Virus record (IMG/VR): IMGVR_UViG_3300042147_000020
Span: 62,001 to 126,000 of that record
DNA from: a virus
DNA length: 64,000 nt
Strand: one strand, 5' to 3'
Each line of letters starts with the position of its first letter. Positions within the stretch are counted from its first letter, which is position 1. Below, one piece after another: positions 9,140-37,640 of this stretch. The notes under the pieces are model-generated. The model ran no database searches, was not told where the DNA came from, and was given only the letters and a program-made list of their open reading frames with translations. Both the position numbers and the translations under genes were made by a program.

Positions 9140-9165
9140 TAGATGATATATACTTCAAATATCTT
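9140..9165 (-). promoter_or_regulatory. early-type promoter (TTTGAAGTATATATCA)
   Basis: Minus-strand ATTTGAAGTATATATCATCTAG upstream of the gp68-like gene; a variant of the TATATTA motif with TATATCA. Confidence 0.6.
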
Positions 9166-9222
9166 TGTATGGCATACAGCCAACACATAGTCCGGCTATG
9201 AGAGACAGGAGGACTTAGAGTC

Positions 9223-9247
9223 GAGCCAGGTCGTATTGACCCAGCTC
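9223..9247 (-). terminator. hairpin downstream of the SSB-like gene
   Basis: GAGCCAGGTC and GACCCAGCTC form a 10-bp stem with two wobbles around a 5-nt loop, just after the stop codon. No T-run. Confidence 0.5.
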
Positions 9248-9262
9248 TCCTCTATTCAGTAG

Positions 9263-9994
9263 TTACATCGGGAAGTCGTCGTCGTCGAAGCCGCCAGCCT
9301 GAGTCTGGTTGCCGCCGCCTTCGTTACGCTGTTTCCAGCCACCACCATCACCGCCACCTTGGCGCTGTTGGCCACCGCCCTGAGGACGCTGCTGTTGACC
9401 GCCACCACCGTTGAAGTCTTTCTTCACCGGCTCAACGTACTCTTTCACAGCTACGGCAGCCATCATGTTGGCCAGCATGTTGCGATAGCCGCGCAGGAAG
9501 TAGTTGGACGCTTGGCGTTTGTCCATCGGATTACCGTCGGTGCCAATCATGGCGTGGTAGTTCGATGGTAGCAGGTTGAACTTCAGGTACGGGCGATCTT
9601 TCGCCACGACAGCCAAGAACAGGCAGCCTTCTTTGTCACGACCGACACAGGTAGTGGAAACCAGCTTCGGTTGGTCGGAACGCTTGCCTTCGAAGAAGGT
9701 GTGGTTCAGGTTCTGGATCTTCAGAACCATGCCGTCTTCCAGGGTCAGTGCGTCTTGCATCGCTTCGAGCAACATGTAGAACGTAGGCATGTCCATCGCA
9801 GCGCGGATGTTGCCGTTCATCTTGTCGTTCGGGACGTTGGTGTAAACGTCGATGCGCGGGTTGTTGCTTACCAGCGAGATCGCGAACGAGCCAGGCTTTT
9901 GTGCACCCTGAGCAGGTGGGCAAGACAGACGGAGTTTGAACTCGTCCATTGCGTTCTTGGCGCGAGGTGGGGCTTGAAATTGTGGACCGGCCAT
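9263..9994 (-). CDS. single-stranded-DNA-binding-like protein
   Basis: 243 aa. A folded N-terminal domain (about 1-180) is followed by a Gly/Gln/Asn-rich linker (GGGGQQQRPQGGGQQ) and an acidic, phenylalanine-containing extreme C-terminus (FDDDDFPM, 236-243). That architecture is typical of SSB proteins, whose acidic tip recruits replication and repair partners. I did not recognise an OB-fold signature, so the call rests on architecture and on its neighbour, an Mre11-like nuclease. It probably acts in replication inside the phage nucleus. Confidence 0.55.
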   Translation of the reverse strand: MAGPQFQAPPRAKNAMDEFKLRLSCPPAQGAQKPGSFAISLVSNNPRIDVYTNVPNDKMNGNIRAAMDMPTFYMLLEAMQDALTLEDGMVLKIQNLNHTFFEGKRSDQPKLVSTTCVGRDKEGCLFLAVVAKDRPYLKFNLLPSNYHAMIGTDGNPMDKRQASNYFLRGYRNMLANMMAAVAVKEYVEPVKKDFNGGGGQQQRPQGGGQQRQGGGDGGGWKQRNEGGGNQTQAGGFDDDDFPM

Positions 9995-10062
9995 TTTGAA
10001 TCTCCAGAACTTTTGTTTCGTACAAATTATGGGAGTTCCCCGTATTTCAATACAGGGAGTCG

Positions 10063-16190: not shown

Positions 16191-18194
16191 TCAGTTACGA
16201 CCCCAGTTGCCGGTGAACGGCGAGCTGAAGAGGCGGGAGTTCTGCTGGGTAGCGGTGCCGTAGTTGAAGAAGTTGCCCACGTTCTGATTAACAACCAGGT
16301 GGTCCAGAGCGTAACCGCCGCGCTGTACTTGACCTGCGTTGTCATCCAGACCTTTGGCCGGACGGACGTTCAGACCCGACTTCACGATCGCTTCCGACAG
16401 TGCGTCCAAGAACGTGTTGTCGAACGATACGCGACGAGCGAAGCCCTTGATCACGATGTCGCCAGAGATCAGTTGACGCAGGATTGCCTTGCGCTGATCC
16501 AGACGGACTTCCAGTGCGATGTTGGTGTTGCGGTGGGTGTCTTCCCACGCTTCAACCAGCTTCGGATTGGTTTTGCCAGCCAGGTTCAGGATTGCGACGT
16601 AGTCCAGCTCACGCAGGTCACGACGATTGCCTTCGCGATCGTAGTAGTAGCCCAGGTGGATGCGATCCTGATCGTCGTAGCAGACCGGAGCCGCTGCGTT
16701 GAACAGATTCTGGAAGTGACCCATGGTCAGGTTGTTCGCCGCTTGCAGGATTGCCATGCGGGCATCTTCGTTGCCGTTGGCGGCAGCGATGAAGGTTTGG
16801 TGAATCCAGCTCAGCTCACCAGCTTCTTCGATGTCCAGGGTGTAGATCAGCTTTGGAGCGATCAGCATGTTGATCAGTTGGCGCATTTCGTTGTCGCCGA
16901 ATTCGGCGCTACGAGTGTCCAGACGATCAGGCTTGGCTTGCGGATCACCGGTCAGGTTGATTTCGTAGCCCAGTGCGCCCAGGTCTTTCAGGTCAACGTC
17001 GTTGCCTTTACCTTTGTGGGTGCGGAAGGTACCGGACCAGTGCATGTTGCGGTTCAGACCCAGTGCAGTGCTGAGTGCCAACAGTTGCAGTTCCATGGTG
17101 ACGGCGTCAGTCATGGTGTCGATGGTGGTCATGACCAGACGAGGCTGGTACATTTGAGTAGCCATCGGCTGCTGCTGTTGGAACATGTTGCCCATCTGCG
17201 GCGCTTGCTGGAAACCGGCAGCGGCAGGTTGGTACATCAGATCAACGTACGCAGTAACGCGAGTGAGCTGACGGGACTGTTGCAGGCCGAACTGTGCATC
17301 GGTTTGGGTCTGTGCCGACATGCCGACAATGATGTCGCCACGAACTGGCAGGCCGACGATGTTCTCTTCATGTTGACGAGTGAAGTCAACACGAGCGATC
17401 ATTTGGTCGTTAGCACCAACTTCACCCAGGGTGAACGGTTCTTCAACCGAGCCCAGCTTGTTGTCCATGATGGTGTACACCGCCTGAGTGGCGTTGTGCA
17501 ACAGACGGTTGAAGCGGGTTTCGGTGAAGTCTTCGGTTTCGCTGTTGACGATCACGCAGCCGCCGTCGTGAACCAAGGCATTGATGCCGTAGCTGTCGAT
17601 GACGAACTTTTCCAGAACCGACCAGTACGACTTGTGCAGGTAGATGTCACCGGCAACAACGTCGACTTCGACCTGAGCACCGTTCAGGTTCAGGGTCGAG
17701 CTTTCCAGCGGAGAACCCGAGGATTCAATCATCAGGCTGTAGACCGCGATGTGGTTCTGACCGCCGACGGCTTCCTTGTAGCAGACCAGGATCGAGCTGT
17801 AGGTAACTGGGGTAGCGTTGTTGTCCAGAACCAGGAGACGGAAGTCAGCCTTCTGCTGTTCGTTCATGGTTTTGGCGATGCGGTCTTTCAGGCCTTGAAA
17901 GATGACGCTGACGTCTTCACCGGCCATGTTACGGCCAACTGGACGACGGTGGTTGGCGTTGATGTCGAGGACCGAACGGCCACGGCTACCGACGCGAGAA
18001 GAAGGCTGGTTCACGTTTGCACCTGCTTGAGCGAAAGACTGTTGTTGGGATTGTTGAGCTTGTGGTTGAACTTGTGGCTGCTCAGCCTGCGGAGCCGACT
18101 GAGATGCCTGGGGATTCAAACCTGCCGTACGCATGGCATCAGCCATTGCATTGTTCGGAGGAGTTTGTTCGTTACGGTTCTTCTGGACGGCCAT
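16191..18194 (-). CDS. chmA: candidate chimallin, the phage-nucleus shell protein
   Basis: 667 aa. Residues 1-55 are a Gln/Pro-rich disordered segment, followed by a long folded region and a short C-terminal tail (SPFTGNWGRN). The call is by synteny: it lies immediately upstream of the RNAP beta' N-part, the position of phiKZ gp54 (ChmA) next to gp55, and its length is close to the roughly 630 aa I recall for 201phi2-1 gp105. Codon choice is strongly biased to C/G-ending codons compared with neighbours, as expected for a very abundant protein. An early-type promoter lies about 85-110 nt upstream and a strong terminator follows. I could not confirm the fold from sequence. Confidence 0.65.
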   Translation of the reverse strand: MAVQKNRNEQTPPNNAMADAMRTAGLNPQASQSAPQAEQPQVQPQAQQSQQQSFAQAGANVNQPSSRVGSRGRSVLDINANHRRPVGRNMAGEDVSVIFQGLKDRIAKTMNEQQKADFRLLVLDNNATPVTYSSILVCYKEAVGGQNHIAVYSLMIESSGSPLESSTLNLNGAQVEVDVVAGDIYLHKSYWSVLEKFVIDSYGINALVHDGGCVIVNSETEDFTETRFNRLLHNATQAVYTIMDNKLGSVEEPFTLGEVGANDQMIARVDFTRQHEENIVGLPVRGDIIVGMSAQTQTDAQFGLQQSRQLTRVTAYVDLMYQPAAAGFQQAPQMGNMFQQQQPMATQMYQPRLVMTTIDTMTDAVTMELQLLALSTALGLNRNMHWSGTFRTHKGKGNDVDLKDLGALGYEINLTGDPQAKPDRLDTRSAEFGDNEMRQLINMLIAPKLIYTLDIEEAGELSWIHQTFIAAANGNEDARMAILQAANNLTMGHFQNLFNAAAPVCYDDQDRIHLGYYYDREGNRRDLRELDYVAILNLAGKTNPKLVEAWEDTHRNTNIALEVRLDQRKAILRQLISGDIVIKGFARRVSFDNTFLDALSEAIVKSGLNVRPAKGLDDNAGQVQRGGYALDHLVVNQNVGNFFNYGTATQQNSRLFSSPFTGNWGRN

Positions 18195-27673: not shown

Positions 27674-28126
27674 TTAACGACCGCACCAACTCTTCTTGGT
27701 GCCACCGTCGTACGCAACTGCAAGACCATTCTTGATCAGCAGTTGTGCGATGTCTATGTCATCCACCATCACTGTGGAGACGATGCGGAAGTACTTATCA
27801 CGTTCAGGGTTCACCAGTGTAATCTGGTTGGCTGCGTCGATGTACTTCTTCAGCAACAGTCGGGCTTGACGTGCTTTGGCTTTCTCAGCTTCTTGCTCAG
27901 CGACTACTTTACAAGTGCTACGCATTTCAGGAGTATCAATCCCAGCCAAGCGAATCCCGATGTTCTTTCCGAAGAGGTCAGGAACCTCAGGGATGTTCAC
28001 ATAGAGAGTATCGCCATCGTAAATCCTAACCACTTGGGACGACTTCAGGTTGAAGTCCCCGAAGGCAAAGACGCTGAATGAAGCCAGCATCAGTACCAAT
28101 GTTGCCACAATGTTTCTAACCTTCAT
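27674..28126 (-). CDS. secreted staphylococcal-nuclease-like (SNase/TNase) endonuclease
   Basis: 150 aa from the ATG behind TTGGAGTTTAGT; an in-frame ATG four codons earlier lacks an RBS. A signal peptide is clear (MKVRNIVATLVLMLASFSVFAFG). The SNase core follows: VVRIYDGDTLYV (calcium-site Asp39), IRLAGIDTPE (Arg59, Asp64, Glu67), then RDKYFRIVSTVMVDD and DIAQLLIKNGLAVAYDGG. Two Cys (72, 148) could form a disulfide. Ca-dependent cleavage of DNA/RNA in the periplasm or after release is expected. It lies between two non-coding RNA segments. Confidence 0.85.
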   Translation of the reverse strand: MKVRNIVATLVLMLASFSVFAFGDFNLKSSQVVRIYDGDTLYVNIPEVPDLFGKNIGIRLAGIDTPEMRSTCKVVAEQEAEKAKARQARLLLKKYIDAANQITLVNPERDKYFRIVSTVMVDDIDIAQLLIKNGLAVAYDGGTKKSWCGR

Positions 28127-28139
28127 ACTAAACTCCAAG

Positions 28140-29060: not shown

Positions 29061-29735
29061 TCACTCGTGGGTTGTGGACAACTCACTGATGATGCACACT
29101 GACCCGTCTTCCACAGGAGTAGTATCGCTGTAGTCGACTTGATTGTAGACGCCCCCGTGGAACTGAAGAACACGATCGTTCCAAGAGCTGTCCAACCGTA
29201 GGGCTGGACAGATGGACTTACGACCTTGACACAGAACCGAAACGGATACGGAACCACCGGCGGTCACGTGAACACTGATCTTGAAAGGTACCCCAAGTGG
29301 GACATTCTCCAAGATGGTGGCGTTCATGATTACCGGATCGTCAAAACTAGCACGGAACCCGATCGTGAGCTTACCTTTGTTCCAGAACACCTTAAGCGGC
29401 GGGGTGTTCGAGTCTTTGACATGAAGCTGTGCTACCACAACCTTCTGGGCCCAGTTGACCTTGGTCAACGTCATTGTCTGGCGGCTCCAGTGATGGGCGG
29501 CACTTGACAAGGACCAGTAGTCAGCCTCTTTCCATTCCGTACGAGTACGGTGTACGCTTTTACTCGAAGCCCCCTTTGTGGGAGCAGTGAACTGAATGGA
29601 ACCGTCTTCGAGACGGAGCACGCAGCTTGCACAGTTGGCTAAAGCGTAGTCACCCATGACTTCTAGAGCCACTGGGTCAGTCGGAGAAACAGGTAGCGGT
29701 GTAGCGATGATGTACTGCGATATGTCGACAAACAT
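29061..29735 (-). CDS. polysaccharide lyase family 7 (alginate-lyase-like) protein
   Basis: 224 aa; start at the ATG behind TGGAGATGACAG. The three hallmark PL7 motifs appear in order and spacing: RTEWKE (65-70, for RTEL/RSEL), QLH (103-105, for QIH) and QFHGGVYNQ (191-199, for YFKAGxYNQ), with the connecting beta strands (TLTKVNW, PLKVFWNKGKLTIGF) of a jelly roll. The family eliminates uronate bonds in alginate, an exopolysaccharide of Pseudomonas. Tyr of YFKAG is replaced by Gln, so activity or specificity may differ. No signal peptide; release at lysis or virion incorporation is inferred. Confidence 0.8.
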   Translation of the reverse strand: MFVDISQYIIATPLPVSPTDPVALEVMGDYALANCASCVLRLEDGSIQFTAPTKGASSKSVHRTRTEWKEADYWSLSSAAHHWSRQTMTLTKVNWAQKVVVAQLHVKDSNTPPLKVFWNKGKLTIGFRASFDDPVIMNATILENVPLGVPFKISVHVTAGGSVSVSVLCQGRKSICPALRLDSSWNDRVLQFHGGVYNQVDYSDTTPVEDGSVCIISELSTTHE

Positions 29736-29780
29736 TCTGTCATCTCCAGTTAGGACCATAAGATGACGGAACGGGGAATG

Positions 29781-30585: not shown

Positions 30586-30768
30586 TTAAGTAGCCTTCAG
30601 GACTTCGGTCACCTTGATCTCGCGATCGTCGTAGACAACGCGCTGAGCTTGTTCACCGTCTTGTAGGATGAACTTCTCGTACACTTCGCCTGTAACGCGA
30701 TTCACGATAACCACTTCAACTTCTTTATCGGAAGCGCAGTGGGCTTGAGTAATTACAGTGGTAGTCAT
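30586..30768 (-). CDS. unknown 60-aa protein
   Basis: Small beta-type protein (KEVEVVIVNRVTGEVYEKFIL), strong RBS (AAGGAGTCGTC). It lies 9 nt after the Tad2-fusion gene and before a terminator, so the two form a two-gene unit. Function unknown; a co-factor of its neighbour is possible. Confidence 0.6.
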   Translation of the reverse strand: MTTTVITQAHCASDKEVEVVIVNRVTGEVYEKFILQDGEQAQRVVYDDREIKVTEVLKAT

Positions 30769-30777
30769 GACGACTCC

Positions 30778-31602
30778 TTAACGACGGTTGTAGTTGATGC
30801 GCTTAACTTCAAGTTCAGCGAACAAGTCCATCGGGTAATCGTCTGGCAGGTGAGCAGCAACTGTAGAGTTGGTGGTCTGCGGGTCGATCACAATGCTGAA
30901 CGGCAGCCGAACGAGGTTGCCCAGTGCACCGTTGATGATGATGTCGCGGTTGATCTTGGTCGCATTGCTGAATCGGGCCGCAACCTCTACACCGTCTTTG
31001 GTAACGATGCGCAGTAACTTGATCGAGTCGATGCTGTCAGTGGAGTCAATCGCTACACCACTGGCTCCGATCAGGCCGAACAGAGACTTGCGATCGCCGT
31101 CCTTCAACGGGAGACGGATCACCGAAGTGTCGCTCACGATGGTAGGTTCGTGTAGGATCTGCCAGTCTTCAGCCAGTTGATCCGATTGTGCCGGAGTCCA
31201 CGGGGTGAATACGTTCTGTGCAGTCTTCATGCCGACCCATGGTGCGAGTGTTGGACACTCGTTCTCACCGGGCTTGTAACCGACAGTTCCACAACCCACG
31301 TCGTAATGACCAGGCTGAACCATTACCAACCACATACCTTGACCATTCCACGAAGGACGCGTAACACGCTTGCCTTGCTTCAGGGCTTCGATGGCTAACC
31401 CGAAGGTCAGAGAATCGCACGGACGGTAGCTGTCCTCGAACACGGCTTTAGGCGACCAAGACTGGTGACCGTTGTCGTATTCCACAAGGTAGCCTTCATC
31501 GGCACCGTTTTCGTCAGCAGGTAACTCCCAGCCTTTGAGTTGGTTGTAGTCCAACCGAGACATCGGAGTTCCGATAACCTTCTTGGTACCAATGTAGTTC
31601 AT
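30778..31602 (-). CDS. Tad2 (DUF2829) anti-Thoeris domain fusion protein
   Basis: 274 aa in three parts. 1-60 (YIGTKKVIGTPMSRLDYN, GWELPADENGADEGYLVEY, SWSPKAVFEDSYRP) is a segment often found before this domain in phages. 64-150 is a Tad2/DUF2829 domain: LTFGLAIEALKQGKRVTRPSWNG, MWLVMV, APWVGMKTAQN, FTPWTPAQSDQLAEDW. 151-274 is an unrecognised beta-rich extension. Tad2 proteins sequester the gcADPR signal of the Thoeris defence system. Activity of this fusion is inferred; the added C-terminal domain is unexplained. Start behind GGTAGATAAC. Confidence 0.8.
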   Translation of the reverse strand: MNYIGTKKVIGTPMSRLDYNQLKGWELPADENGADEGYLVEYDNGHQSWSPKAVFEDSYRPCDSLTFGLAIEALKQGKRVTRPSWNGQGMWLVMVQPGHYDVGCGTVGYKPGENECPTLAPWVGMKTAQNVFTPWTPAQSDQLAEDWQILHEPTIVSDTSVIRLPLKDGDRKSLFGLIGASGVAIDSTDSIDSIKLLRIVTKDGVEVAARFSNATKINRDIIINGALGNLVRLPFSIVIDPQTTNSTVAAHLPDDYPMDLFAELEVKRINYNRR

Positions 31603-31626
31603 GTTATCTACCTTGAATGAATGAGG

Positions 31627-31702
31627 GTCCCCCTACCGGATTCGAACCGATGCTCGCTACCCACGAAGGGCGGCAGCTCTAACCGACTGAGCTTAAGGGC
31701 GA
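31627..31702 (-). tRNA. tRNA, probably Arg (TCG), imperfect
   Basis: Acceptor TCGCCCT/AGGGGGA has one G-G mismatch. D stem AGCT/AGCT. Anticodon stem CCGCC/GGTAG has one C-A mismatch around loop CTTCGTG (anticodon TCG). T arm ATCGG-TTCGAAT-CCGGT. No encoded CCA. May be decaying or atypical. Confidence 0.65.
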
Positions 31703-36486: not shown

Positions 36487-36678
36487 TCAGCCCAGCCCGA
36501 CACCAGAAGGACGGTTCTCGACCTGATGTTTCGCAGGATCGTAAACTACCTTCTCGTAACAGTTGTGCCAAGGTTTACCCAAACAGCAAGTGCAATGGAA
36601 CGGGGCTGCCACTGGATTGCTCAGGAGTTCAATGACTCCGCACTTGTCGCAAGCGTATTCCAGCAGCGTACCGCTCAT
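36487..36678 (-). CDS. 63-aa zinc-ribbon-like protein
   Basis: Two Cys pairs, CDKCG near residue 10 and CTCCLG near 30, form a probable zinc ribbon. The start overlaps the PhuZ stop (TAATG), so translation is coupled to PhuZ. Probably a DNA- or protein-binding accessory; no specific family. Confidence 0.65.
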   Translation of the reverse strand: MSGTLLEYACDKCGVIELLSNPVAAPFHCTCCLGKPWHNCYEKVVYDPAKHQVENRPSGVGLG

Positions 36679-37640
36679 TACAACACCAGGCCGTCGTCAG
36701 TAGTGGCAGTGTCGCCCACCAGATCGACAGCAGCAGCACGGCCTTCACGACGACGAATGAAGTCGTCCAGAGTCTTCTGGAGTTTCTCGTAAGTAGCATC
36801 GAGATTCTCGGTGGACACTACGAGGTGAACTTCTTTGACGCCTTCGATAGCAGTCGTGAAGTAACCGGTGCACGGATATTCCGGGATCGGCTCTTCGAGA
36901 TGCTTCTGATCACGGTCGCTGTACAACGAAGCGATGGTGATCGGGTCCTTGATGACCTTGACGTCTTCCGGGTTGTAGAAGATGTCCAACATCGCCAGTT
37001 GTGCAGGCACGCTGGTCGAGTGGTTGAAACGCAACCAGTTGGCAACGTCTTTGGTATCCAGCTCGTCGTTCTGACGCGAAGTCAGGTAGCACAGGCTGGA
37101 GATGGCCAGGTTGATTTGACCGTCGACTACCGAACGAGTGCAGTCGCCGCCGTTGTGGCGGTAGTACATGACGATCGGGGTATCGACTTGCTTGGAGATG
37201 GCTGCCAGCGACTTGATGGTGTTCAAGGTGTTCTGTGCAGTGATGGTCGATTCCGAAGAACCAGCCAACAGCACAACTACCGAGTGACCGCGAGCTGCCA
37301 GTTCTTTTGCCAGCAACGGACCGATGACCGAACCCGAACCGCCGGACGCCGAGAAGACCACGATGTTGAAATCTTCGGGGGCTTGCTTCAGCAGGATTTG
37401 CTTGACCGCTGCGGAGATCTGCGCGTGGTTCTCTTTACGCACTTTACCGGAGCCATCAGTTTTGTCGAGGACGTAGATCGAGTCTTCGTTGGTGATACCG
37501 GCCAAGTTGGAACGGCTGGTGTCAATGAAGCTGACCAGAGGGGTCGCGAAGCCAGGAGCTGGCGGACGGTCGATGTAGGCCTTGACGATGTTCGTACCCA
37601 GACCACCACAGCCGTACAGACGCACTTTACCTTGTTCCAT
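36678..37640 (-). CDS. phuZ: PhuZ, phage tubulin/FtsZ-family GTPase
   Basis: 320 aa. N-terminal strand-loop RLYGCGGLGTNIV (GTP-binding T1) and the tubulin signature as SASGGSGSVIG (97-107, for GGGTGSG), then NTIKSL and the central helix, ending in a C-terminal tail (DTATTDDGLVL) of the type that contacts the next subunit. In phiKZ-like phages PhuZ filaments form a bipolar spindle that centres the phage nucleus and carries capsids. High C/G-ending codon use suggests strong expression. RBS AGGAAG. Confidence 0.95.
   Translation of the reverse strand: MEQGKVRLYGCGGLGTNIVKAYIDRPPAPGFATPLVSFIDTSRSNLAGITNEDSIYVLDKTDGSGKVRKENHAQISAAVKQILLKQAPEDFNIVVFSASGGSGSVIGPLLAKELAARGHSVVVLLAGSSESTITAQNTLNTIKSLAAISKQVDTPIVMYYRHNGGDCTRSVVDGQINLAISSLCYLTSRQNDELDTKDVANWLRFNHSTSVPAQLAMLDIFYNPEDVKVIKDPITIASLYSDRDQKHLEEPIPEYPCTGYFTTAIEGVKEVHLVVSTENLDATYEKLQKTLDDFIRRREGRAAAVDLVGDTATTDDGLVL

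Follow-up and report, generated by a model that had tools for sequence, protein, structure and literature searches.

A Tad2-family protein with an added C-terminal domain in a phage carrying a nuclear shell protein gene

The window, the whole 64,000-nucleotide stretch of viral DNA analysed here, encodes a protein with a slightly unusual domain architecture built on an ordinary sponge family, Tad2, in a nucleus-forming phage. An N-terminal domain and a Tad2 domain are followed by roughly 120 residues that form a real coding domain, since they are in frame in two independent relatives and their dN/dS is 0.28–0.43. Judged from the genomes scanned, this C-terminal domain appears to be lineage-specific, being limited to the closest relatives of the window. 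The strand of the gene, the predicted fold of the C-terminal domain, and the presence or absence of that domain among relatives are new with respect to an earlier note on this DNA. The favoured reading, put forward tentatively and given nearly an even chance, is that an ordinary Tad2-type signal sponge may be fused to a lineage-specific domain for docking to a partner or to the virion. Titles and abstract openings on Tad2 and Tad1, Thoeris, gcADPR, and phiKZ yielded no description of a three-part Tad2.

The Gene, Its Neighbours, and the Phage

The open reading frame at positions 30778–31602 exists on the minus strand only: read from 31602 to 30778 it gives 274 residues, and the plus-strand frame over the same positions is interrupted by stops. 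The gene is present as a single copy in the 238,799-base virus genome. Five queries drawn from the clade of the window were run against IMG/VR and identified three closely related contigs, referred to as L001 (238,014 bases), L005 (94,030 bases), and L002 (81,695 bases). The features are as follows.

30778–31602, minus strand: whole coding sequence, 274 residues plus stop, ATG start, open frame
31414–31602, minus strand: N-terminal domain, residues 1–63, common to the phrog_872 family
31153–31413, minus strand: Tad2 domain, residues 64–150 (PF11195, 7.5e-23; ModTad2 9eib, 2e-17)
30781–31152, minus strand: C-terminal domain, residues 151–274, predicted beta-sandwich (no sequence family; AlphaFold2 pLDDT 81.9; fold matches; missing from L002)
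30586–30768, minus strand: downstream 60-residue ORF, present in the window, L001, L002, and L005 (ORF lists and DNA)
31625–31702, minus strand: tRNA-Arg just upstream of the Tad2-protein gene (ARAGORN)
16191–18194, minus strand: nuclear shell protein, or chimallin (phrog_4795 'nuclear shell protein', 9.6e-112; tblastn to annotated shell proteins)
36678–37640, minus strand: PhuZ tubulin (phrog_4733 'tubulin PhuZ', 3.5e-90)

The Tad2-protein gene is located among tRNAs, outside any virion gene block, which counts against the favoured reading. L001 also has a tRNA-Arg upstream of the gene, and ARAGORN reports none for L002. On the other side, the AGGAG of the 60-residue ORF, which resembles a ribosome site, overlaps the 3′ end of the Tad2-protein gene; a PHROG search with this ORF gave no clear match. 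By eye, the gene has no internal start that is backed by a good ribosome site and could yield the C-terminal domain as a separate product. Within the tRNA cluster, positions 29061–29759 (minus strand) encode an alginate-lyase family protein (PF08787, 6.7e-40) with 67.5% identity to a polysaccharide lyase family 7 protein of Pseudomonas phage Psa21, and this identity is the reason for guessing that the host is Pseudomonas. In L005, the stretch where the window carries the alginate lyase is occupied by a 302-residue ORF between tRNA genes (9146–10054, plus strand), in which kelch-like repeats are seen by eye. An SNase-family nuclease (PF00565, 2.7e-11) with an apparent N-terminal signal peptide, again by eye, is encoded at 27674–28138 on the minus strand of the window.

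By its shell protein gene, the phage is classed as nucleus-forming (Chimalliviridae). The shell protein has 97% identical copies in the contigs of L001 and L005 and was not found in the 81.7 kb fragment of L002; among the named phages listed, the best match is that of Xanthomonas phage LucasX, at 31%. The window also encodes several RNA polymerase beta-subunit homologues, a DNA polymerase, and a tail sheath. The earlier note had placed the protein in a phage-nucleus setting, which is upheld because the phage encodes both a shell protein (9.6e-112) and PhuZ (3.5e-90). Its accompanying argument, that small-molecule defences would pass the nuclear shell and that a Thoeris inhibitor would thus be logical, is reasonable. 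Nine named jumbo phages, chosen as phiKZ-like, were examined for Tad2, and one has it: Erwinia phage Ea35-70, with a 150-residue protein nearest to phrog_1048. In this nucleus-forming Erwinia phage (L107, 1384–3026, plus strand), the genes immediately after that for the Tad2-domain protein encode two paralogues of phrog_6658 and a phrog_11644 protein of unknown function.

The N-Terminal and Tad2 Domains

The Tad2 core is as clear as the earlier note had stated. PF11195 (Tad2-like) matches residues 66–150 with 81.3 bits against a cut-off of 25 (7.5e-23), and the nearest solved chains in a search of PDB sequences are ModTad2 (9eib, 2e-17), another Tad2 (2.6e-17), and SPO1 gp34.65 (2.2e-12). Across 10 aligned members including the window protein, W85, N86, G87, T127, P134, W135, Q139, D141, D146, and W147 are invariant, and the conserved Tad2 motifs W-N-G and W...Q.D....DW are intact in the window protein.

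The description of a three-part protein also stands as to the number of parts, but the N-terminal domain and Tad2 together constitute one common two-part family, phrog_872. The phrog_872 profile spans residues 2–150 (E 1e-48, profile positions 15–171 of 172), and phrog_9467 and phrog_32732 cover residues 2–65 alone. Proteins of phrog_872 characteristically end after Tad2, and the window protein departs from this by 124 further residues. In tblastn searches, 291 phage records match, every one below 60% identity and phage N4 gp49 included; the annotations among these matches include 'anti-CRISPR protein' and 'Thoeris anti-defense 2-like protein'.

As applied to this protein, 'anti-Thoeris' is a label drawn from homology. 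It may be a borrowed name, with the N-terminal domain and Tad2 serving another role in the phage cycle, such as that of a different inhibitor. PHROGs lists the function of both phrog_872 and phrog_1048 as unknown, and the two-part family adjoins lysis, packaging, and other genes in the annotated phages examined. In addition, AcrIIA7 is a member of the same superfamily, and its PDB chains match the window protein weakly (1.6e-7 and 6.5e-7). Entries under the name AcrIIA7 or inhibitor of type II CRISPR-Cas score below those for Tad2, however, and the nearest solved relatives are all Tad2, with a match that spans the whole domain. Such a role is considered improbable.

The C-Terminal Domain among Relatives

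In sequence searches, the C-terminal domain stands apart. The window copy has no match in Pfam, the window and L001 copies give nothing better than E 0.11 in PHROGs, and a two-row profile has no match among PDB sequences up to E 10. Searches of 50,697 phage records returned chance-level matches only (best E 0.7), and no relative turned up when 84,980 genomes of bacteria and archaea were scanned twice by pattern. Two candidates were set aside: an assignment of the L001 copy to QWRF in Pfam, which scores under the family cut-off, and a tblastn match in Vibrio phage 10AMN (E 1), which is a chance match to a different kind of protein, presumably a DNA adenine methylase.

The C-terminal domain occurs in three of the four clade members (window, L001, and L005) and is missing from L002. 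The full three-part protein has 272 residues in L001 and 274 in L005. In L002 the protein has 153 residues, its last being ILETL, with a clean stop after Tad2, and the gene is flanked on both sides by the same genes as in the window; the core of N-terminal domain and Tad2 stands alone there at the same locus. The alignment of the window with L002 covers window positions 31603–31154 and, after a break at the C-terminal domain, 30789–30585.

A wider census covered the best 80 of at least 586 confirmed IMG/VR stretches related to the N-terminal and Tad2 domains, with L005 falling outside those 80. In 77 of the 80, the protein ends no more than three residues from the end of the match; of the remaining three, L086 is broken by a stop, and L001 and L043 carry long extensions. 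Likewise, no extension past Tad2 is found in the eight annotated phage proteins examined. The extension in L043 (2001–2894, plus strand) is a crAss001_48 domain (1e-17) unrelated to the C-terminal domain of the window protein. Since this N-terminal and Tad2 protein carries a different C-terminal addition, the family would appear to accept varied C-terminal partners.

By Nei-Gojobori counts, dN/dS in the C-terminal domain is 0.28 between the window and L001, 0.41 between the window and L005, and 0.43 between L001 and L005, and thus the domain is kept by purifying selection. Synonymous divergence varies along the gene. For the N-terminal domain, Tad2, and the C-terminal domain in turn, the window–L001 pair has dS of 0.145, 0.76, and 1.47, and the L001–L005 pair has 0.63, 0.56, and 0.36. 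Identity to the window copy is 55–58% in the C-terminal domain and 95–97% in the N-terminal domain; window–L001 aligned blocks longer than 1 kb near the gene have 83–93% identity. The uneven dS suggests that the gene is a mosaic whose C-terminal part was exchanged through recombination.

Predicted Fold and Profile Comparisons

The earlier note had named no counterpart for the last 120 residues, which holds for sequence but not for the predicted fold, as matches among viral predicted structures and capsid chains were obtained. When the C-terminal domain alone was modelled with AlphaFold2 from three sequences, the best model reached a mean pLDDT of 81.9 and a pTM of 0.72, the only one of five above a pLDDT of 72 (the others scoring 71.3, 65.7, 53.2, and 45.1). 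A full-length model from a three-row alignment was poor (mean pLDDT 48.6) and was set aside. The best model has eight strands and one short helix, and the domain is confidently predicted to be a beta-sandwich.

Against viral predicted structures (BFVD), Foldseek gave three matches at E<=1e-3, two of them Psa21 proteins and one from Phabio, the best at E 5.7e-5 with a TM-score of 0.64 and a probability of 1.00. The best 12 rows include nine that are named (three from Psa21 and one each from Phabio, PS119XW, PhiEaH1, Eowyn, Noxifer, and PhiPA3), all from phiKZ-like jumbo phages. Matches of 130, 130, and 131 residues agree, by length only, with Psa21 gene 291, Phabio gp335, and PS119XW gp260. In a direct comparison of the C-terminal domain with PhiPA3 gp366, hhalign was not significant (P 0.41) and pairwise shuffling gave Z 1.3–2.4. 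As a separate observation, Psa21 encodes an annotated ribose-phosphate pyrophosphokinase and nicotinamide phosphoribosyltransferase (L135, 15115–18882, plus strand), a possible NAD-salvage pair; on either side lie small proteins, 113 and 194 residues long, and both sizes recur among the Psa21 fold matches.

Among PDB structures, none of 813 Foldseek matches reaches E<=1e-3. When VIA-align 2 was run against 994 chains, jumbo-phage capsid chains took the top three rows: S6 (Z 8.2, 107 residues, 3.3 Å), phiKZ (Z 6.7, 114 residues, 3.4 Å), and phi-Kp24 (Z 6.1, 115 residues, 3.5 Å), where Z of 6.1–8.2 is middling and Z below 8 may reflect a common arrangement only. The next rows are a P1 head protein (6.0), a superoxide dismutase variant, and small-virus coat proteins. 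Nucleotide-binding sponges are not listed by VIA-align, which says nothing on relationship. In phi-Kp24, the hexamer arms and hands are reported to stabilise the shell, probably in the manner of decoration proteins (PMC9700779).

A member of the phiKZ gp224 family is encoded within a series of small genes in each of Psa21, Phabio, and PS119XW, and several records annotate this family as 'virion structural protein', a label given by the annotators. Ten families of small proteins from phiKZ-like phages were compared by hhalign with the three C-terminal domains; gp224 (nine sequences) was the only one to align end to end, with a global P of 0.0075 over 112 columns and a local P of 0.025 over 110, the best of the ten families. 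None of 120 column shuffles reaches its global score of 14.6 (mean 3.1, maximum 8.8), a procedure that also removes ordinary beta patterns, and the reversed gp224 profile gives a global P of 0.82. In a single-sequence scan with the same global score, the Psa21 homologue of gp224 ranks 15 of 215 Psa21 small ORFs. Profiles of gp224 and gp223 found nothing in the window genome and its relatives, in a search run without a positive control, and the gp224 profile found nothing useful among PDB sequences (best E 0.42, a nanobody). The profile link between the C-terminal domain and the virion protein gp224 is suggestive only.

Proposed Role of the Protein

Tad2 is described as forming homotetramers, each holding two gcADPR, and as binding cyclic dinucleotides too (PMC12043709), and recombinant SPO1 Tad2 is reported not to bind 3′3′-cGAMP (PMC11722364). 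As a member of this family, the Tad2 part of the window protein most probably forms oligomers and captures a nucleotide alarm signal, which may be gcADPR, a cyclic dinucleotide, or both, and which the nuclear shell would not keep out. Going by fold resemblance, the C-terminal domain most likely binds a protein partner and not the signal. Such contact would place or stabilise the sponge, and the leading candidate for the partner is a structure of the virion or of early infection. The phiKZ-like phages would also make this fold as small separate proteins, and here it would be fused to the sponge.

The earlier note had suggested that the C-terminal residues could add a second ligand or target, and neither is favoured. 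If the domain were a second ligand pocket or inhibitor, a single protein could block a pair of signals or a pair of defences. In its favour, a sponge of this class is able to take up more than one signal (PMC12043709), and the C-terminal domain is the fastest-changing, mosaic part of the protein, as an arms race would predict. Against this, the fold matches listed comprise capsid chains and small proteins of phages, with no sponge among them, which is weak evidence, and a second pocket is judged unlikely.

A bolder form of docking is that the C-terminal domain serves as a capsid-docking tag, through which the finished Tad2 sponge is packaged in the virion and enters with the DNA. This is regarded as quite doubtful. 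If it were true, the sponge would encounter the alarm signal ahead of all phage gene expression, and the protein would be a modular packaged sponge, paralleling the reported injection of Tad1 by phiKZ, with a docking module that is gained, swapped, or lost between close relatives. Lastly, the domain could be a dispensable remnant of recombination with no role of its own. This would fit the ability of L002 to manage without it and its low identity relative to the N-terminal domain, but it is very unlikely given the dN/dS in all three pairs and the full-length, in-frame conservation in three contigs, by which the domain is kept.

Under the favoured reading of a sponge fused to a docking domain, a C-terminal domain that places the protein in the virion or in an early structure would show how phages position a stoichiometric inhibitor where and when it is needed. 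The role of this domain is testable with natural variants of 153 residues (L002) and 274 residues, because L002 lacks it at the same locus. According to a 2026 review, Tad1 is so far the sole anti-defence protein described in jumbo phages (PMC13282480). If the protein works, a Tad2-type sponge here would be a second sponge family in nucleus-forming phages.

Comparison with Known Systems

The solved Tad2 proteins (SPO1 gp34.65, ModTad2, and SptTad2) align with residues 64–150 over the full domain (E 2e-17 to 5.6e-9). Their chains have 88–101 residues, whereas the window protein, known here from sequence, adds an N-terminal and a C-terminal domain. Proteins of phrog_872, such as phage N4 gp49, share the order of N-terminal domain and Tad2 with the window protein; unlike it, they mostly end at Tad2 (8/8 annotated, 77/80 in IMG/VR). 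The small beta-sandwich proteins of phiKZ-like phages (Psa21, Phabio, PS119XW, and PhiPA3 gp366) have a predicted fold like that of the C-terminal domain, with TM-scores of 0.50–0.64 and a probability of 1.00, but they share 8–18% identity with it and stand alone, whereas the domain is fused in the window protein. The phiKZ gp224 family matches the three C-terminal domains end to end by hhalign, although single-sequence comparison does not single it out and it is missing from the named fold rows. Tad1 and Tad2 are named as separate families in a review (PMC12043709). According to another review, phiKZ injects Tad1, which soaks up signals of the same class (PMC13282480); as a nucleotide-signal sponge in a nucleus-forming phage, it is the known system that the window protein may work like.
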